The notes beneath the pieces were generated by a model. The model did no database searches. It was given only the letters and a program-made list of their open reading frames with translations, and was not told where the DNA came from. Below, one piece after another: positions 351 through 9,507 of a stretch of DNA of 62,145 bases. Source of the DNA: Candidatus Accumulibacter contiguus (GTDB lineage Bacteria; Pseudomonadota; Gammaproteobacteria; Burkholderiales; Rhodocyclaceae); the NCBI RefSeq assembly GCF_012940005.1, contig NZ_SPMX01000042.1:1-62145 (forward strand), read 5' to 3'. A program made the translations under genes and the position numbers. Position 1 is the stretch's first letter, and every line of letters starts with the position of its first letter.

Positions 351-587
351 AGGAGTGCGTCCCTGCCGGTACCGTCGATCTGATCGCCCGCTTGAAACAG
401 CAGGCGGCAGCCGGTGATGTGATCGCCGAAATCACGCTGAATTCGCTATTGTCCTCGCCATTGTATGCGCCCAGGAAATGACCAAGAAGGTTGGAGCCCG
501 AGAAGCATGCGCCCCCTTTGGCTGACCCGGGAATCACACCTTCAGGATCTCGACTCGGCACCCAGGCAGCGAATCGGGAGCCTGCGG

Positions 588-1148
588 CTACTGCCCTGCC
601 GATTGGCAAGCATCCGTCCGATCCTGCCCAACCCAGATCAGGCGGCTGATATCGAAACCGAGTTGTCGCGCTTTTACCAGTAACTGCTCGCGAACTTCGG
701 CGGGCAGTCGCCGCTCGCGCGACAGGATCCACAGGTAGTCACGGCTCGGGCCGACGACTAGCGACCAGAGGTAAGTGTGCTCATCCAGTGCGGCGATATG
801 GTAGCCGCCGTAGAAAGGGCCAAAGAACGACACCTGCAGCGAAGCGAGCGTCGGTTCGCCAATGAACCGTGCCTTGCCGATGGCTTCCTTCCAGGTACCT
901 TTTTCTGCGCTGTAGCCGCAATTGATCACTTCGACGCTGCCGTCGGGCTGCAGGCGGTACTGCGCCGAAACATCGCTGAGTCCGCGTTCGAAAGAGTGGT
1001 CGAGGCGGGCGATCTCGTACCACTTGCCGAGGTAGCGATCGAGCTGGAACGGGCTGACCGGGGTGATTCCTTGAGGAACACCGGTGCACGCCACGAGGAA
1101 CAGAAGCGAATGGAAAAACAGCAGGATACGAAGAAGGCACATGCTCAT
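588..1148 (-). CDS. blc: Outer membrane lipoprotein Blc, lipocalin
   Basis: This 186-residue protein is a bacterial lipocalin, a family that binds fatty acids or lysophospholipids at the outer membrane and is linked to membrane maintenance. It begins with a signal peptide ending in a lipobox (LFLVAC, Cys about residue 21), so it should be a lipoprotein. The lipocalin signature LGKWYEIARLDHSFERG follows at about residues 40-56, and the barrel strands end in the typical LWILSRERRLP segment. Length matches E. coli Blc (177). Its ATG is 3 bp behind the stop of the WGR gene at 1152-1424, so the two are probably cotranscribed. Confidence 0.92.
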   Translation of the reverse strand: MSMCLLRILLFFHSLLFLVACTGVPQGITPVSPFQLDRYLGKWYEIARLDHSFERGLSDVSAQYRLQPDGSVEVINCGYSAEKGTWKEAIGKARFIGEPTLASLQVSFFGPFYGGYHIAALDEHTYLWSLVVGPSRDYLWILSRERRLPAEVREQLLVKARQLGFDISRLIWVGQDRTDACQSAGQ

Positions 1149-1151
1149 TAC

Positions 1152-1424
1152 CTATGCAGGGGGTGACTCGTCGACGCGCTGGTAGCCGTGTTTCGCCCGC
1201 CGTGCCGCCATCATGGCCATCAGCTTTTCTCCGTTCGCGGGGCTGTCGACCGCAACGATTCGGACTCTCGATCGGCGATAACCGCCGTAATAGACGATGA
1301 CGGCGAGGCCGAACAGGTCACGGCCCAGCTCAAAGCAATAGAAGCGGCCATCGGGGCGTGTCCAGATTTCCATCGCGCTATCGTACCGGTTTTCAAGCTT
1401 GCATGAACACTTGAATACCGTCAT
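1152..1424 (-). CDS. WGR-domain protein
   Basis: A 90-residue protein made almost entirely of a WGR domain. The pattern RFYCFELGRDLFGLAVI, then a Gly/Arg turn and a closing helix KLMAMMAARRAKHGYQ, is the family layout. WGR domains are found in PARPs, MolR-like proteins and many stand-alone bacterial proteins; nucleic-acid binding is known for the PARP versions only. An internal ATG at 1371-1373 would give a 73-residue protein starting nearer the domain and cannot be excluded. The gene precedes blc by 3 bp and diverges from glgX. The 108 bp up to 1533 must hold both promoters; I see no clear boxes. Confidence 0.72.
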   Translation of the reverse strand: MTVFKCSCKLENRYDSAMEIWTRPDGRFYCFELGRDLFGLAVIVYYGGYRRSRVRIVAVDSPANGEKLMAMMAARRAKHGYQRVDESPPA

Positions 1425-1532
1425 CGCCGGCGTGCAAGCGCAGTTCGCGGCAGACTGCAGGTGCGATAAAATGCGCAGGAGTCAAAACCATTTGCCTACC
1501 ATGGCCTATCTTGTAAAACAGAAAGAACCCCC

Positions 1533-4500
1533 ATGTCTGAACCGCTGACGGCCGTCTGGCCTGGAAAATCCTATCCTTTGGGTGCCACCTGGGACGGCGC
1601 AGGAGTCAATTTCGCCTTGTTCTCCGAACACGCAGACAAGGTGGAGCTCTGCCTGTTCGACGCCAGCGGGCGGCTGGAACAACGGCGCATCGAACTCCCC
1701 GAGCAAACCGATCAAATCTGGCATGCCTATCTGCCCGAAGTCCGTCCCGGCCAGTTGTACGGCTACCGGGTACATGGTCCTTACCGACCCGGGCAGGGGC
1801 ACCGCTTCAACCCGCACAAGCTGTTGCTGGATCCCTACGCCAAAGCCATTGTTGGCGGAATCAAGTGGAGCGACGCCCAATTTGCTTACCGCATCGGCAA
1901 CGCACAGGAGGATTTGAGCTTCAGCCGCCGCGACAGTGCTGCCGGGATGCCCAGGTGTCAGGTGATCGATCCGGATTTTGACTGGGAGGGCGACCGCCAC
2001 CCCAATGTTCCCTGGCATCAAACCGTGATCTATGAGCTGCACATCAAGGGCTTCACCCAGCTGCATCCGCATGTTCCGCCCGAATTGCGCGGTACCTACG
2101 CCGGCCTGAGCGCGGGGCCGGTCATCGACCACCTCAAGCGCCTGGGGGTGACGGCGGTGGAGTTCCTGCCAATACAGACCTTCATCGACGACCGCCTTCT
2201 GCTGGAAAAGGGCCTGAAAAATTACTGGGGATACAATTCGATCGGCTATTTCGCCCCCGAGCCACGCTATTCCGCCAGCGGCGAGATCAACGAATTCAAG
2301 CACCTGGTCAAGACGCTGCACGCTGCCGGCATCGAGGTCATCATGGATGTGGTCTACAACCACACCGCCGAAGGCAACCACATGGGACCGACACTGTGTT
2401 TCCGTGGAATCGACAATGCTGCCTATTATCGGCTGGTCGCGGGCAATCCCCGTTACTACATGGATTACACCGGCTGCGGCAATACCCTGAACATGATGCA
2501 TCCGCGGGTATTGCAACTGATCATGGACAGCCTGCGCTACTGGGTGATCGAGATGCACGTCGATGGTTTTCGCTTCGACCTGGCGGCGGCGCTGGCGAGG
2601 GAACTGCACGAAGTCGATCAACTCGGCGCATTCATGGACATCATTCATCAGGATCCGGTCCTGTCGCAGGTGAAGCTGATCGCCGAGCCCTGGGACCTCG
2701 GCGAAGGCGGCTATCAGGTCGGCAACTTTCCGGTCGGCTGGACCGAGTGGAATGGCAGATACCGCGACGTGGTGCGCGATTACTGGCGGGGCGAGGGGGG
2801 ACTGATGGGTCAGTTGGCCCACCGGCTGACCGGTTCCAGCGATCTGTATCAGCACAGCGGCCGCCGGCCCTACGCCAGCATCAACTTCATTACCGCCCAT
2901 GACGGCTTTACGCTCTACGACCTGGTCAGTCATAACGACAAGCACAATGCCGCCAATGGCGAAGACAACCGCGATGGCGACTCGCATAACCGTAGCTGGA
3001 ACTGCGGCGTCGAAGGCGACACCGCCGACCCGGAAGTGCTGCGGCTGCGGGAGCGGCAGCGGCGCAACCTGCTGGCAACCCTATTGCTTTCACAAGGCGT
3101 ACCGATGCTGCTCGCCGGCGATGAAATGGGCCGGACGCAGCGCGGCAACAACAATGCCTATTGTCAGGACAATGAACTGAGCTGGGTGAACTGGGATCTG
3201 GCCTGGCTGCCCGCAAACCGTGAACTGTTCGAATTCACCCGCCGCCTGATCGATCTGCGCAAAGCCCATCCGGCGCTACGTCGGCGACATTTCTTCCAGG
3301 GGCAGCGCATCCGCGGCGCGGGCGTCCGGGACATCATCTGGCTGCATCCGACGGGCAGCGAGATCAGTGATGAGGACTGGGACCATCATTATGCCCGTTG
3401 CTTCGGCGTGTACCTGATCGGCGAGGCCCTGGAAGAACAGGACGAACGCGGCCAATGGGTCAAGGATGATGATTTTCTGCTGTTGCTCAACGGCCATTAT
3501 GAGGCGATCCGCTGCACGCTGCCGTGGAAGGGGAACAGTGAGCTGGTGCTGGATACCGCCCTGTCGGAGGGCGGAACCGGCCAGCCGTGCATGGACCAGT
3601 CCTATCTTGTGCAGGGCCGTTCGCTGGTGCTGCTGACGCAGCGGCGGCAGGCCGGCCAGGTGGCGGTGCCATTGTTGCGGCGGCGTTATTTCATGCCCGC
3701 TGGCGCACAGCTACTGGAAGGTGGCCGGATTCGGTTTCGCCTGTGGGCGCCGCTGGCGGAGCGGGTGGAAGTGTCGCTGGAAGAGCCGGGCGGCACCGTT
3801 CTTCTGCCGATGGAGGCGAGGGAAGCCGGCTGGTACGAATTGAGCACCGATCGGGCCAGGGCGGGCGATCTCTACCGGTACCGGATCGACGGCGTCGGAG
3901 AATTCCCGGATCCGGCTTCGCGTTACAACCCCCAGGGCGTACACGGTCCCAGCCAGTTGCTGGACCCCGGTCAGTTCGTCTGGAACGACTGCAACTGGCG
4001 GGGCCGGCCCTGGGAAGAGGCGGTCCTCTACGAACTGCACGTCGGTACCTTCACCCCGCAGGGCACCTTTGCAGCCGTTCGGGAACGGCTCGATTACCTG
4101 CGGGAACTGGGCGTGACCGCCATCCAGTTGCTGCCGGTCGCCGCTTTTGCCGGGGCACACAACTGGGGTTACGACGGCGTGTTGCCGTTTGCGCCCGCCG
4201 CCAGCTATGGCCATCCGGACGAACTGAAAGATCTGATTCAGACGGCTCACCACAAGGGAATGATGGTATTGCTGGACCTTGCCTGTCACTACTTCGGTCC
4301 CGAAGGCAATTATCTGCACCTTTACGCGCCGGCGTTCTTTGCGGCCGGCGCGACCGGTCTGGCCGGCCGCAGTATCGATGCGGCCAACCCGGTGGTGCGC
4401 GAGTTCATCATCCACAATGCGCTGTACTGGCTGGAAGAGTTCCACTTCGACGGCCTGCGCCTGAATGCGGCGCTGCTGCAGGAGCAGGCTGGGCAGTCGG

Positions 4501-5453
4501 AACTGTTGGAAGCGCTGGCTCGCGCCGTCCGCGAGGGACCTGGCAGAGACCGTCATTGCCACCTGCTGCTCGGTCATGATCGGCGCGCTGCGCGCTATGT
4601 CCATTGGCATGATCACAGCGCGCCACGCCGCTACGAAGCGGTCTGGAATGACGCCGCTCAGCAGGCCATGCAGGAGGTGCTGATCGGTGCTGGCGTGACC
4701 GCTGTCGATCGGCCGCTCGACCAGTTGGGCGCGTGTTTAAGCCGGGGGAGTACCGCTGGCGGGCCAGATTCCCTGCTGCCCAACGCTTTCGTGACCTTCC
4801 TGCAGGATCATTCCTGCATTGGCAGCCGCGCTCTGGGTGAGCGTCTCCACCAATTGGTGTCGCCGCGACCGCTGGGAGCCATGGTGGCGACCACTCTCCT
4901 GGCGCCGATGCCGCCGGCGCTGTTCATGGGCGAGGAGTTCGCCGCCGCACAGCCGTTCCTGTATTTTTGCGATTTCAACCCGGATCTGATCAAGAAGATC
5001 GCCATCAACCGGCGCAAGTCCTTTGCCCATCTTCCGGGATTTCGTACACCCAAAGCGCGGGCCCGCATTCCCGACCCCAACCATCCGGCCACCTTTGAGC
5101 GCTGCCAACTGGACTGGAACAGCGTGCATCACTCACCGCACGCGGACTGGCTGCATTTCTATCGCCGCCTGCTGGCGGTTCGCCACCGGGAAATCACTCC
5201 CCGCCTGGCGGGAATGCATGAGGAAGCGGTGCGGTTTACCCTGCCAGGCGAACGCGGACTATTGATCCGCTGGACGCTCGGAGACGACTCGATGCTGTCC
5301 CTGCTGGGCAATTACGGCGACCTTCCGCTAGCGGGACTGCATCGGCCCGAAGGCGTGGTTCTGTGGGCCGAACCCGGTGAAGCCGAGCATGCGCTCAAGC
5401 AGGGCCAATTGCCGCCATGGTCGGTGGTGTGGTTGCTGCGGGCTGCCGGCTGA
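1533..5453 (+). CDS. glgX: GlgX glycogen debranching enzyme fused to an inactive TreZ-like domain
   Basis: One 1306-residue frame holds two GH13 proteins in tandem. Residues 1 to about 715 are GlgX, which cleaves alpha-1,6 branches in glycogen: N-terminal CBM48-like domain ([17 protein letters not shown]), region I DVVYNH, nucleophile D349 in DGFRFD, acid E385 in IAEPWD, and D457 in TAHDGF, all intact. Residues about 725-1306 match malto-oligosyltrehalose trehalohydrolase (TreZ) along its length ([28 protein letters not shown]). In this half the catalytic positions are changed: N978 in DGLRLN instead of Asp, G1014 in LLLGHD instead of Glu, S1094 in QDHSCIG instead of Asp, and region I reads DLACHYF instead of DVVYNHF. 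GlgX activity is likely; trehalohydrolase activity is not. The second half may bind glucan or tune the first. No treY or treS is nearby. Confidence 0.93.
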
Positions 5454-5455
5454 GG

Positions 5456-6929: not shown

Positions 6930-7643
6930 TCAGCTCCTGCGCCGGCGAGCGACACCCAGACCGACTAGACCCAGGCTCAGCAAAGCGAGCGAGGCCGGCT
7001 CGGGGACTTCCTGCTGCGAGAAGCGCTGTTCGAAACCTTGCAGACTGGCCGTCTCGTCGATTCCTGTCGCCCAGACCAGGATGTTCTTGGTTACCCAGAT
7101 CGATTGCATAGGCGTGAAATTCGCCACATCGGTCAGGTTGGAGATCAATCCAGTGCCATCGAGCCAACTGAATTCGACTTCCTTGACGCCGAGATCATCC
7201 AGGCCCGCTGCCGTACCGATGGTTTCCCGGATGTAGAAACCGTTGTCCCCCAGATTGGTGACAAAGCCATCGGTCAAGATCAGCGAATTGTCCTTGATCA
7301 ACTTGCCTGGATCGAGCACCGAAATGCGAAACCCGAAGCTAGTATCGAGATAGGCGTAAAGGCCATCGCCGGTTACGTTGAACTCGCCATTCAGCACGCT
7401 GAAATGCAAACCAGGACCGGGGTCCATGCCGCCATCGTTGAGAGGCGTGACGTCGATGTTGTCGGCGTTGAAGGTCCTGCCGTCGCTGGCGCCGTAGAAG
7501 TTCAGGGCCCAGTGATCAAACACCTTGTCACCAGCGGTAATACTGGCACCGCCAAGCAGGCTGGATAGCGGGATGGCGTGCGCGGCACCGGCTGAGGCCA
7601 GTACCAGGGCAAGAGCTGTGAGGTTTCGCATCAAGGATTTCAT
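6930..7643 (-). CDS. PEP-CTERM sorting domain exported protein
   Basis: A 237-residue exported protein. It has a signal peptide (MKSLMRNLTALALVLASAGAAHA), a beta-rich central domain of unknown function, and a C-terminal PEP-CTERM signal with VPEPASLALLSLGLVGLG and RRRRS. Such proteins are handled by an exosortase (EpsH/XrtA type), which cleaves near the PEP motif; none lies in this window. I prefer the ATG at 7641-7643 to the one at 7661 because the AAAGGAA just upstream of it works as a ribosome site. It is followed by other exported proteins in the same direction. Confidence 0.83.
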   Translation of the reverse strand: MKSLMRNLTALALVLASAGAAHAIPLSSLLGGASITAGDKVFDHWALNFYGASDGRTFNADNIDVTPLNDGGMDPGPGLHFSVLNGEFNVTGDGLYAYLDTSFGFRISVLDPGKLIKDNSLILTDGFVTNLGDNGFYIRETIGTAAGLDDLGVKEVEFSWLDGTGLISNLTDVANFTPMQSIWVTKNILVWATGIDETASLQGFEQRFSQQEVPEPASLALLSLGLVGLGVARRRRS

Positions 7644-7716
7644 GAGGGAAGTTCCTTTCATTCAAATGGGCGAGATAGCAATCGCCCCTGGCAGGGCCGG
7701 GGGCTGGTATTCATCA

Positions 7717-9507
7717 TTAGTTGATGGCGCAATTGGCCCGCGTGCACCTGGGAATGCAGAATTTGACGTCGGCAGGGTCGATTCTGCCGTCGCCATTGGC
7801 GTCGCGCGGGTCGCCGGGCAGCGGGGTCTGGCCGCGAGCCTTGCTGATCAGCGACAGGTCAAGCGAGTCGATATCGCCATCACGATCCACGTCGCAGACG
7901 CCATCCGAGGTGTTCAGAGTAAGGTCGAAGAGGATCGGCGAAGCGCCGTCGGTGTTGGCGTTGAGCCGCACCTGTACCTGGATGAAGCGGCCGCTCACAC
8001 CCGGGTTCGCCCCATTCACCACCGGCTGGTAGGCCAGGTTGGGCAGAATGGCCTGGTTGTTGTCGGCTCGCACGCTGACCTGCACGCTGGCACCCGTTGG
8101 CACCTGCTCGGTCCAGCTCACCTTGCTCCAGGCCTGGCCGCTGACACCGCTATCCTTGATCACCGTCCAGGTACCAGTGGGACTGGTGATGTTGCGCGCG
8201 GCGAAACCGGTTGCGTCGCTGTAAGTGTAGGGGTCGAAGCCGACCGGGAAGACGCCCAGCGGAGCGCAATCGCTGCCGCGGTACTTGGATACGCTGTTGG
8301 TGAGGCGGTTGATCTGCCAGACATTGTTGTCCGAGTCCACGATCACGCCACGGGTCTCCGTGGAGGATTGGCTCGCACCGGAGCACAACTCCGCGCCGGC
8401 CGGGCTGTATTTCTTGACCCCGCCACCACTGTAAAAGCCCGTCCAGATATTGCCGGAACCATCGACCGAGATACCGGTGGACGCGAAGCCTTTGGACCCG
8501 CCGGGTGTGGTGAAGGTATTGGGGCCTGGCGTGAATTCACGGAAACCGAATCCGCTCAGCGATCCCAGGTAGACCTTGCCGTTGCCCAGGGCGATGCCGT
8601 AGTTCTGGCTGCTGTCATCGAAGAAGCTGACGGAAGCGGGGTTGCTGGTATCCAGTCTGCCCAGCCTGCCACTCAGCGAGGCGCTCCACAGGATGCCGGC
8701 TCCGTCCACCAGACAGCCGTAGGGATTCCAGGGAACGGAGTGTGGTCCGCTCAGAATGACCCCGTCGGATGCCCGGATCTTGTAGAAATGTCCCGAGTTG
8801 TACATCCCGGCCCACAGATTGCCGTCGGTACCAATGCAGAGCGCCCGCCCCAGTTGGCCGGCTTCTGCGGCGGGGAAAGTCGTCACCCACGCCACCCTCT
8901 CGTCGCGGCTCTCGCAAGTGCCCGGCGGGATGGCACAGTCGAAGTGCCCGTTGCTGTTGTCATCGACGACATCCTTGGTTTCGCTGGAACTGATACTGCC
9001 GCTGATGTCACCATCCGTGGAGGTTTCGGCCGTGGTGTTGGCGTTGCGGTCAATGAAGCCCTCGGCCAGCACCTTCATCAGCGAGGGTCTGCCGCCATCG
9101 AAATGCCGGTTGAGGATGTAGGCGTTGCCGTTGATGTCCACCGCCGAACGGGACGGTGCCGGACCACTGAAGGCGGTGTGATTGGCGAATGGGCCGCTGC
9201 CGAAGAAGGTTCGGTAGCGAGCCAGTTCTTTGCCCGTTGTCGTATCGATCTTGGACAGGGTGTCCTCGCCGGCGTTGGCGACCCACAGGACCGGGAAGGT
9301 GGTACCGACGGAACTGAGCTGCAACTGGTCGTTGTTCGGTGTGTCGTGGTTGACCCCCGAAAGCACACCCTGGTCGAATTGCGCGTCGAGCGTATAGACG
9401 GTGGTGCCAGCCAGCGCGATCGGCACCCAGCACGATGCGGCGAGGGCTGCAGCCAGGCGAGTCAGGGTCAGATTGGACATGCTGCAATTGCTGGTACGAT
9501 TTTTCAT
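7717..9507 (-). CDS. Exported beta-propeller protein with C-terminal dockerin-like domain
   Basis: This 596-residue protein starts with a signal peptide ending near IALAG. Residues about 70-430 form repeated blades of the NHL/streptogramin-lyase type (VLWVANAGEDTLSKIDTTTG, LWAGMYNSGHFYKIRASDG, NIWTGFYSGGGVKKYSPAG). A beta-sandwich-like region follows (about 440-530). The last 62 residues hold two calcium-loop repeats, DVDRDGDIDSLDL and DANGDGRIDPADV, spaced as in a type I dockerin. The ligand is unknown. GGGGAT precedes the ATG at 9507 by 8 bases. An opposite-strand frame of 909 codons over this gene is a shadow. Confidence 0.8.
   Translation of the reverse strand: MKNRTSNCSMSNLTLTRLAAALAASCWVPIALAGTTVYTLDAQFDQGVLSGVNHDTPNNDQLQLSSVGTTFPVLWVANAGEDTLSKIDTTTGKELARYRTFFGSGPFANHTAFSGPAPSRSAVDINGNAYILNRHFDGGRPSLMKVLAEGFIDRNANTTAETSTDGDISGSISSSETKDVVDDNSNGHFDCAIPPGTCESRDERVAWVTTFPAAEAGQLGRALCIGTDGNLWAGMYNSGHFYKIRASDGVILSGPHSVPWNPYGCLVDGAGILWSASLSGRLGRLDTSNPASVSFFDDSSQNYGIALGNGKVYLGSLSGFGFREFTPGPNTFTTPGGSKGFASTGISVDGSGNIWTGFYSGGGVKKYSPAGAELCSGASQSSTETRGVIVDSDNNVWQINRLTNSVSKYRGSDCAPLGVFPVGFDPYTYSDATGFAARNITSPTGTWTVIKDSGVSGQAWSKVSWTEQVPTGASVQVSVRADNNQAILPNLAYQPVVNGANPGVSGRFIQVQVRLNANTDGASPILFDLTLNTSDGVCDVDRDGDIDSLDLSLISKARGQTPLPGDPRDANGDGRIDPADVKFCIPRCTRANCAIN

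Follow-up and report, generated by a model that had tools for sequence, protein, structure and literature searches.

We analysed a 62,145-nucleotide stretch of Candidatus Accumulibacter contiguus DNA (contig NZ_SPMX01000042.1 of assembly GCF_012940005.1, positions 1 to 62,145, forward strand; hereafter the window) and focused on one gene, located at 1533..5453 on the + strand, in which a GlgX-type debranching enzyme and a TreZ-like domain predicted to be catalytically dead are joined in a single open frame of 1306 amino acids. The GlgX half (residues 1-705; 1533..3647, +) consists of a CBM48 domain and a GH13 barrel. Pfam reported two CBM_48 stretches in the protein, the best of them placed at residues 15-103. 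A short junction (residues 706-722; 3648..3698, +) leads into the TreZ-like half (residues 723-1306; 3699..5450, +), which carries a C-terminal DUF3459 domain (residues 1209-1301). At the site of this junction, stand-alone operons have glgX and treZ in different frames, mostly with an ATGA overlap. The fused frame is seen in 12 different sequences, including two from genomes assembled in a single contig (G010 and G016), which rules out an assembly artefact or a frameshift.

The N-terminal half scored far above the NCBIfam cut-off of the GlgX/TreX family (TIGR02100, 640.9 bits), with 1161.3 bits for the whole protein (match at residues 11-702) and 1082.6 bits for residues 1-706 alone. Its catalytic triad, D349, E385 and D457, was intact in 12/12 fused copies and in 66/66 other rows, and 107 of the 111 invariant positions were kept in the GlgX half of the fusions. 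By family score and GH13 triad, this half is a predicted debranching enzyme of the GlgX/TreX type, unlike other members in carrying the dead TreZ-like part, ~580 residues long, at its C-terminus.

Residues 734-1253 matched the NCBIfam model of TreZ (TIGR02402). Taken alone, the TreZ-like half reached 512.3 bits (E = 1.3e-153), below the equivalog cut-off of 538.8, and the whole fused protein passed that cut-off with 629.5 bits because its GlgX half also scores on the TreZ model (128.6 bits alone); the fused protein could thus earn the TreZ label wrongly. In phmmer searches, the TreZ-like half aligned with 3M07 over query residues 7-566 and with the D. radiodurans TreZ 2BHU over residues 5-527, as well as with the S. 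solfataricus TreZ in two separate stretches. An AlphaFold2 model of residues 723-1306, made with 49 sequences, had a mean predicted local distance difference test score (pLDDT) of 87.8 and a predicted template-modelling score of 0.91. Its top Foldseek match was again 3M07 (template-modelling score 0.91 by query length, 36% identity), followed by the TreZ structures 2BHZ (0.86), 2BHU, 3VGD, 3VGE and others at 27-33% identity. The TreZ-like half is therefore predicted to keep the TreZ fold along its length.

To read the catalytic site, we aligned the 11 full-length fused copies with 48 stand-alone TreZ rows. One fused sequence, L043, ends at contig ends; it is counted among the 12 fused sequences for the GlgX triad and lies outside the 11-copy alignment. 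In a separate comparison with 40 stand-alone rows, L050 was cut and its stabiliser position unreadable. All 48 stand-alone proteins carried Asn-His in region I, Asp as the nucleophile, Glu as the acid/base and Asp as the transition-state stabiliser. In the window copy, the corresponding residues are H919-Y920 (4287..4292, +), N978 (4464..4466, +), G1014 (4572..4574, +) and S1094 (4812..4814, +). Among the fused copies, the region I Asn was lost in 11/11 and the His in 8/11, the nucleophile position was occupied by Asn in nine copies, Ser in one and Asp in one, the acid/base position by Gly in ten and Ser in one, and the stabiliser position by Ala in ten and Ser in one. Acid/base and stabiliser were thus gone from every fused copy and the nucleophile from 10/11, with no such loss in any of the 48 stand-alone proteins. 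In a pairwise alignment, N978 faces the mutated residue of 3VGE (PDB title: D252S mutant). A loop is also missing after residue 1077 (4763..4764, +), where 14 alignment columns filled in >70% of stand-alone TreZ were empty in 11/11 fused copies. The 27 TreZ loci newly added from a class scan, at least one of which is a duplicate (L163 repeats L054), all retained N-H, R, D, E and H-D.

The remainder of the domain was largely preserved. Of 134 positions that are ≥95% invariant in stand-alone TreZ, all 11 fused copies retained 86 and had lost 21, and the other 27 varied. Some of the lost positions had been uniformly replaced (Q1043, Q1044 and Q1047), and at 35 positions the fused copies all share a residue that few stand-alone TreZ have. 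That the domain has built a new active site and taken on a different catalytic activity appears very unlikely to us. Retention of the nucleophile Asp in one copy and remodelling of the cleft, with its 14 lost columns, would fit such a change, but the acid/base is Gly or Ser and the stabiliser Ala or Ser in 11/11 copies, and the only acidic residues among the 35 fused-specific positions (a count of newly gained residues) are D1092 and E1230, the latter within the C-terminal DUF3459 domain.

The original prediction, made from the letters of the window, had described a fusion in a fully open frame, with C-terminal ~580 residues resembling TreZ, an intact debranching partner, motifs kept although not needed for catalysis ([23 protein letters not shown]) and substitutions at N978, G1014 and S1094, with HY in place of NH in region I. 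The frame of 1306 codons, the alignment of the TreZ-like half over most of its length with 3M07 and 2BHU, the GlgX triad in all fused copies, the motifs in the translation and the uniform D, E, D and N/H of the stand-alone rows bear out each of these statements. The alignment and the fold place the catalytic positions where that prediction had put them, and intact catalytic residues elsewhere in the TreZ-like domain are thereby ruled out.

We then related the catalytic loss to the distribution of TreY, the partner enzyme of TreZ. In 28 Accumulibacter genomes searched, 19 had a match at E <1e-60, ten of them fused (in one, G026, the gene is broken by a contig end within the GlgX half) and nine with stand-alone TreZ. 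TreY was over the cut-off in 9/28, exactly the nine genomes with stand-alone TreZ. Among 61 relatives, TreY and TreZ were over the cut-off in the same 14 genomes. A family-level scan of 395 genomes found a match in 53 (58 match rows, of which the 30 with a locus were read for fusion and triad) and added one dead fusion, in G361, whose TreZ-like half is identical to a Propionivibrio contig over the compared stretch. An uncultured proteobacterium (L042, genome G792), among the best 80 of 583 relatives, also has the dead fusion, giving 12 dead-fusion genomes: ten Accumulibacter, one Propionivibrio and this proteobacterium. TreY over the cut-off was absent from 12/12 of them, several being drafts in which incompleteness is possible in single cases, and was present in 17/17 tested genomes with intact TreZ, including G030, G137, G210 and G443. 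In the ten fused Accumulibacter genomes, OtsA had no match, and TreS was over the cut-off in one (G023), with weaker matches in G014, G016, G025 and G027. In the collected GlgX-TreZ fusions, then, catalytic loss is clade-wide and goes with the absence of TreY.

Compared with known TreZ (TIGR02402; PDB 2BHU, 1EH9 and 3VGE), the TreZ-like half has the same predicted fold and, like treZ in the stand-alone operons, comes immediately behind glgX. Unlike TreZ, it has lost the acid/base and stabiliser in all aligned copies, the nucleophile in all except one and the loop, and occurs in genomes where TreY was not found. By its triad, its TIGR02402 score and its partner enzyme it would not count as a TreZ; by its predicted fold it still resembles one.

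In the stand-alone loci of the genus, treZ follows glgX head to tail in another frame, and the ATGA overlap is present in 8/9. In the main tree, drawn with a midpoint root, the dead fusions formed one group with 100/100 support, short inner branches and a long stem (0.84 changes per column on the dead group's side of the midpoint root); only with a root placed outside the group would it be a clade. Five long-branched sequences (L032, L057, L085, L089 and L090) and, for thinning, four relatives of L069/L091 (L087, L088, L092 and L095) were left out of this tree. A quick GlgX tree again recovered the dead fusions as one group. A long stem with short inner branches is what would be expected if the role of the domain changed and was then placed under constraint. 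Neither the main tree nor another quick tree joined the dead group with the stand-alone TreZ of the same genus, which gives the two gene forms separate histories, possibly through transfer or old paralogy. One fusion in the quick GlgX tree, L043 (JAJRDJ010000463.1), is labelled Methylococcaceae and groups with Accumulibacter necessarius; its contig is probably misbinned.

A second kind of GlgX-TreZ fusion was identified in G443, from another family of the same class (L168, 2359-6423; 1354 aa from the first ATG). It has the same domain order in one frame. Unlike the dead fusions, it has an intact triad by catalytic residue reading, falls outside the dead group in the tree and is followed directly by a TreY match, which starts 42 bases after the TreZ match. 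Fusion alone therefore does not bring catalytic loss, and fusion as its general cause is ruled out. The scan also returned, in a genome of another family (L152, genome G544), a TreZ match interrupted by a single in-frame TGA; the fetched frame still shows the triad.

We estimated selection on the two halves from the ratio of non-synonymous to synonymous substitution rates (dN/dS), by Nei-Gojobori counting over sequence pairs that are not independent of one another. Across 55 pairs of the 11 fused genes, median dN/dS was 0.164 for the TreZ-like half and 0.103 for the GlgX half; for 36 pairs of the nine stand-alone congeners, the medians were 0.110 for TreZ and 0.119 for GlgX. The dead TreZ-like half thus evolves under purifying selection. 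Ordinary decay, in which this half is a neutral relic left after the loss of TreY, is already disfavoured and in our view barely credible. It could draw on the joint absence of triad and TreY, on a dN/dS of the dead half above both its own GlgX half and active TreZ, and on a decayed fusion copy in the same assembly, but dN/dS stayed within 0.124-0.242 in 51/55 pairs (those with dS <1 in both halves), the match had no internal stop in any of the ten Accumulibacter congeners, and most near-invariant TreZ positions were kept. The earlier proposal of a pseudoenzyme kept by selection and not evolving neutrally agrees with these values. With catalytic loss fixed in the clade and purifying selection acting on the domain, the TreZ-like half has, at the level of sequence, the properties of a GH13 pseudoenzyme, and the loss of catalysis together with the retained constraint suggests a new non-catalytic job.

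The former active site did not stand out from its surroundings. Its windows had a pooled dN/dS of 0.118 versus 0.170 for the whole TreZ-like domain, a comparison made without a significance test, and their mean pairwise identity (0.838 vs 0.803 for the rest of the domain) was not significantly higher, values as high being reached by 4560/20000 random window sets. A conserved new ligand site is thus not demonstrated, and focused conservation of the pocket failed as proof of ligand binding; the dead cleft is maintained about as well as the remaining domain, and no more. This even spread of constraint, together with the confidently predicted fold and the retention of most near-invariant TreZ positions, is what would be seen if the barrel were a structural passenger without a ligand of its own, on which the GlgX half depends for solubility, dimerisation or stability. 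We regard such a dependence as the less likely explanation, if a serious one, since several cleft positions hold the same new residue in 11/11 copies and GlgX exists elsewhere, in stand-alone frames, without such a partner. The same uniform new cleft residues could instead belong to a regulatory sensor: the dead barrel would bind some small ligand, whether maltooligosaccharide, trehalose or nucleotide, and control the debranching half allosterically. There is a precedent in the binding of c-di-GMP to Streptomyces GlgX (PMC9530166 and structure titles); however, no result points to any ligand and the conservation of the pocket is not above the domain mean, making this possibility a rather improbable one. 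We rank the alternatives as structural dependence, allosteric ligand, new activity and neutral decay, in descending order.

On balance, we lean towards the TreZ half being a fixed pseudoenzyme that gives GlgX non-catalytic help, probably as a module that holds glucan or acts as a scaffold. A glgX(treX)-treZ pair like that of the trehalose operons is joined into one gene, and the dead TreZ barrel would now support GlgX in a non-catalytic way. Most likely, alpha-glucan chains would be held in the remodelled cleft of the dead half or by its N-terminal domain, which would keep the debranching half anchored or oriented on glycogen; the assembly of oligomers or an allosteric control may belong to the same role. 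We favour glucan holding because TreZ acts on maltooligosaccharide chains, as is established (PMC11046441), because the predicted fold is kept and because the plant isoamylases ISA1 and ISA2 set a precedent. Several observations weigh against glucan holding by a fixed pseudoenzyme. The one fused copy that keeps the nucleophile Asp is that of Propionivibrio, and the region I His is retained in 3/11 copies; constraint on the TreZ-like half is weaker than on active TreZ (0.164 vs 0.110), its pocket is no better conserved than random windows, and a second copy of the fusion has decayed in the same assembly. The contact between the halves was also beyond the modelling, as an AlphaFold2 model of residues 108-1306 (11 similar rows) had a mean pLDDT of 32.6, too poor for reading the interdomain interface.

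The arrangement would resemble the plant ISA1/ISA2 pair within a single chain. According to PMC12510319, ISA2 has lost its catalytic residues and yet acts with ISA1, so that in both systems an active isoamylase-type debranching enzyme is accompanied by a kept GH13 partner without catalytic residues. The two differ in that ISA2 is a separate, paralogous isoamylase, whereas the bacterial partner derives from a different GH13 enzyme, TreZ, and lies on the same chain. That paper, on maize, states that the reason for the continued selection of the noncatalytic isoamylase is not understood. Chlamydial GlgA-GlgB is likewise a fusion of two glycogen enzymes, the second of which, the branching enzyme, is apparently non-functional (PMC7935935); the authors blame the fused N-terminal domain and see a disappearing pathway. 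In the dead GlgX-TreZ fusion, by contrast, other residues stand at the catalytic positions, and the domain evolves under purifying selection. A more far-reaching proposal is that bacteria independently evolved an ISA1/ISA2-like device, in which a covalently attached dead GH13 barrel from a discarded trehalose pathway grips glucan or regulates the enzyme and so tunes the glycogen cycle that phosphorus-removing Accumulibacter species rely on; we offer this tentatively, as an idea that falls somewhat short of probable.

Precedents exist both for dead GH13 partners (ISA2) and for fusions among glycogen or trehalose enzymes (GlgA-GlgB, TreS-Mak). The original prediction had called the build uncharacterised. 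For the dead-TreZ form this stands, in that none of the open-licence papers listed was seen to describe GlgX joined to a dead TreZ, which does not prove its absence from print; for the GlgX-TreZ fusion as such it does not, G443 having one with its triad intact.

In Accumulibacter, enhanced biological phosphorus removal runs with a glycogen cycle, and a debranching protein with a pseudoenzyme half would be a new candidate control point of this cycle. A bacterial parallel in a single chain would also lend itself more readily to dissection than the plant isoamylases, and the G443 fusion, with its triad intact, offers a natural control. There is a consequence for annotation as well. The TreYZ trehalose route has been inferred in Accumulibacter from BLASTp matches with E-value <1E-40 (PMC7778627). 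The E-value of the dead half against the TreZ model is far lower, so that a search by homology alone would probably report TreZ for species in which TreY was not found, and homology-only annotation would over-call the TreYZ pathway in the dead-fusion species. The clade I cultures described in PMC7778627 may well have a real TreYZ.

The genome of the window comprises 5.02 Mb in 167 contigs and is 98.7% complete. Among the best 80 of 583 relatives, the closest named contig with the gene was that of Ca. Accumulibacter vicinus UBA5574, at 100% in the best segment. The fusion is flanked by a lipocalin gene (588-1148) on one side and, further off, by a PEP-CTERM gene (6930-7661) on the other, and the lipocalin-fusion block (554-5454) aligns with G010 at 92%. 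Between the window copy and G010, dS was 0.141 in the TreZ-like half and 0.349 in the compared part of the GlgX half, a difference that may reflect intragenic recombination. A GlgB-type match lies close to the fusion in six of the ten fused Accumulibacter genomes (G014, G016, G021, G023, G025 and G027). On contig C94, the window genome has another GlgX-like gene along with one more GH13 match, and the fusion is thus not the only GlgX-type protein of this genome.

The decayed fusion copy lies on contig C76 of the same assembly (L118, 6030-6600), upstream of a glgB-like gene that is the same gene as the one following the intact fusion in six congeners. What remains of it corresponds to GlgX residues 1-149 and 217-241 and to a TreZ-like stretch near residue 978. 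Its DNA is 92-95% identical to the A. necessarius-type copies (L040 and L043) and 83% identical to the window copy; from these identities, contig C76 may have been transferred or misbinned.

Adjoining the PEP-CTERM gene is a frame at 7717-9507 on the - strand, whose product looks secreted and has a match to dockerin type I; cellulosomes are not known from this bacterial group. Long antisense open reading frames lie opposite the fusion gene (1506-2987, -) and its neighbours, and are most likely a by-product of codon usage.

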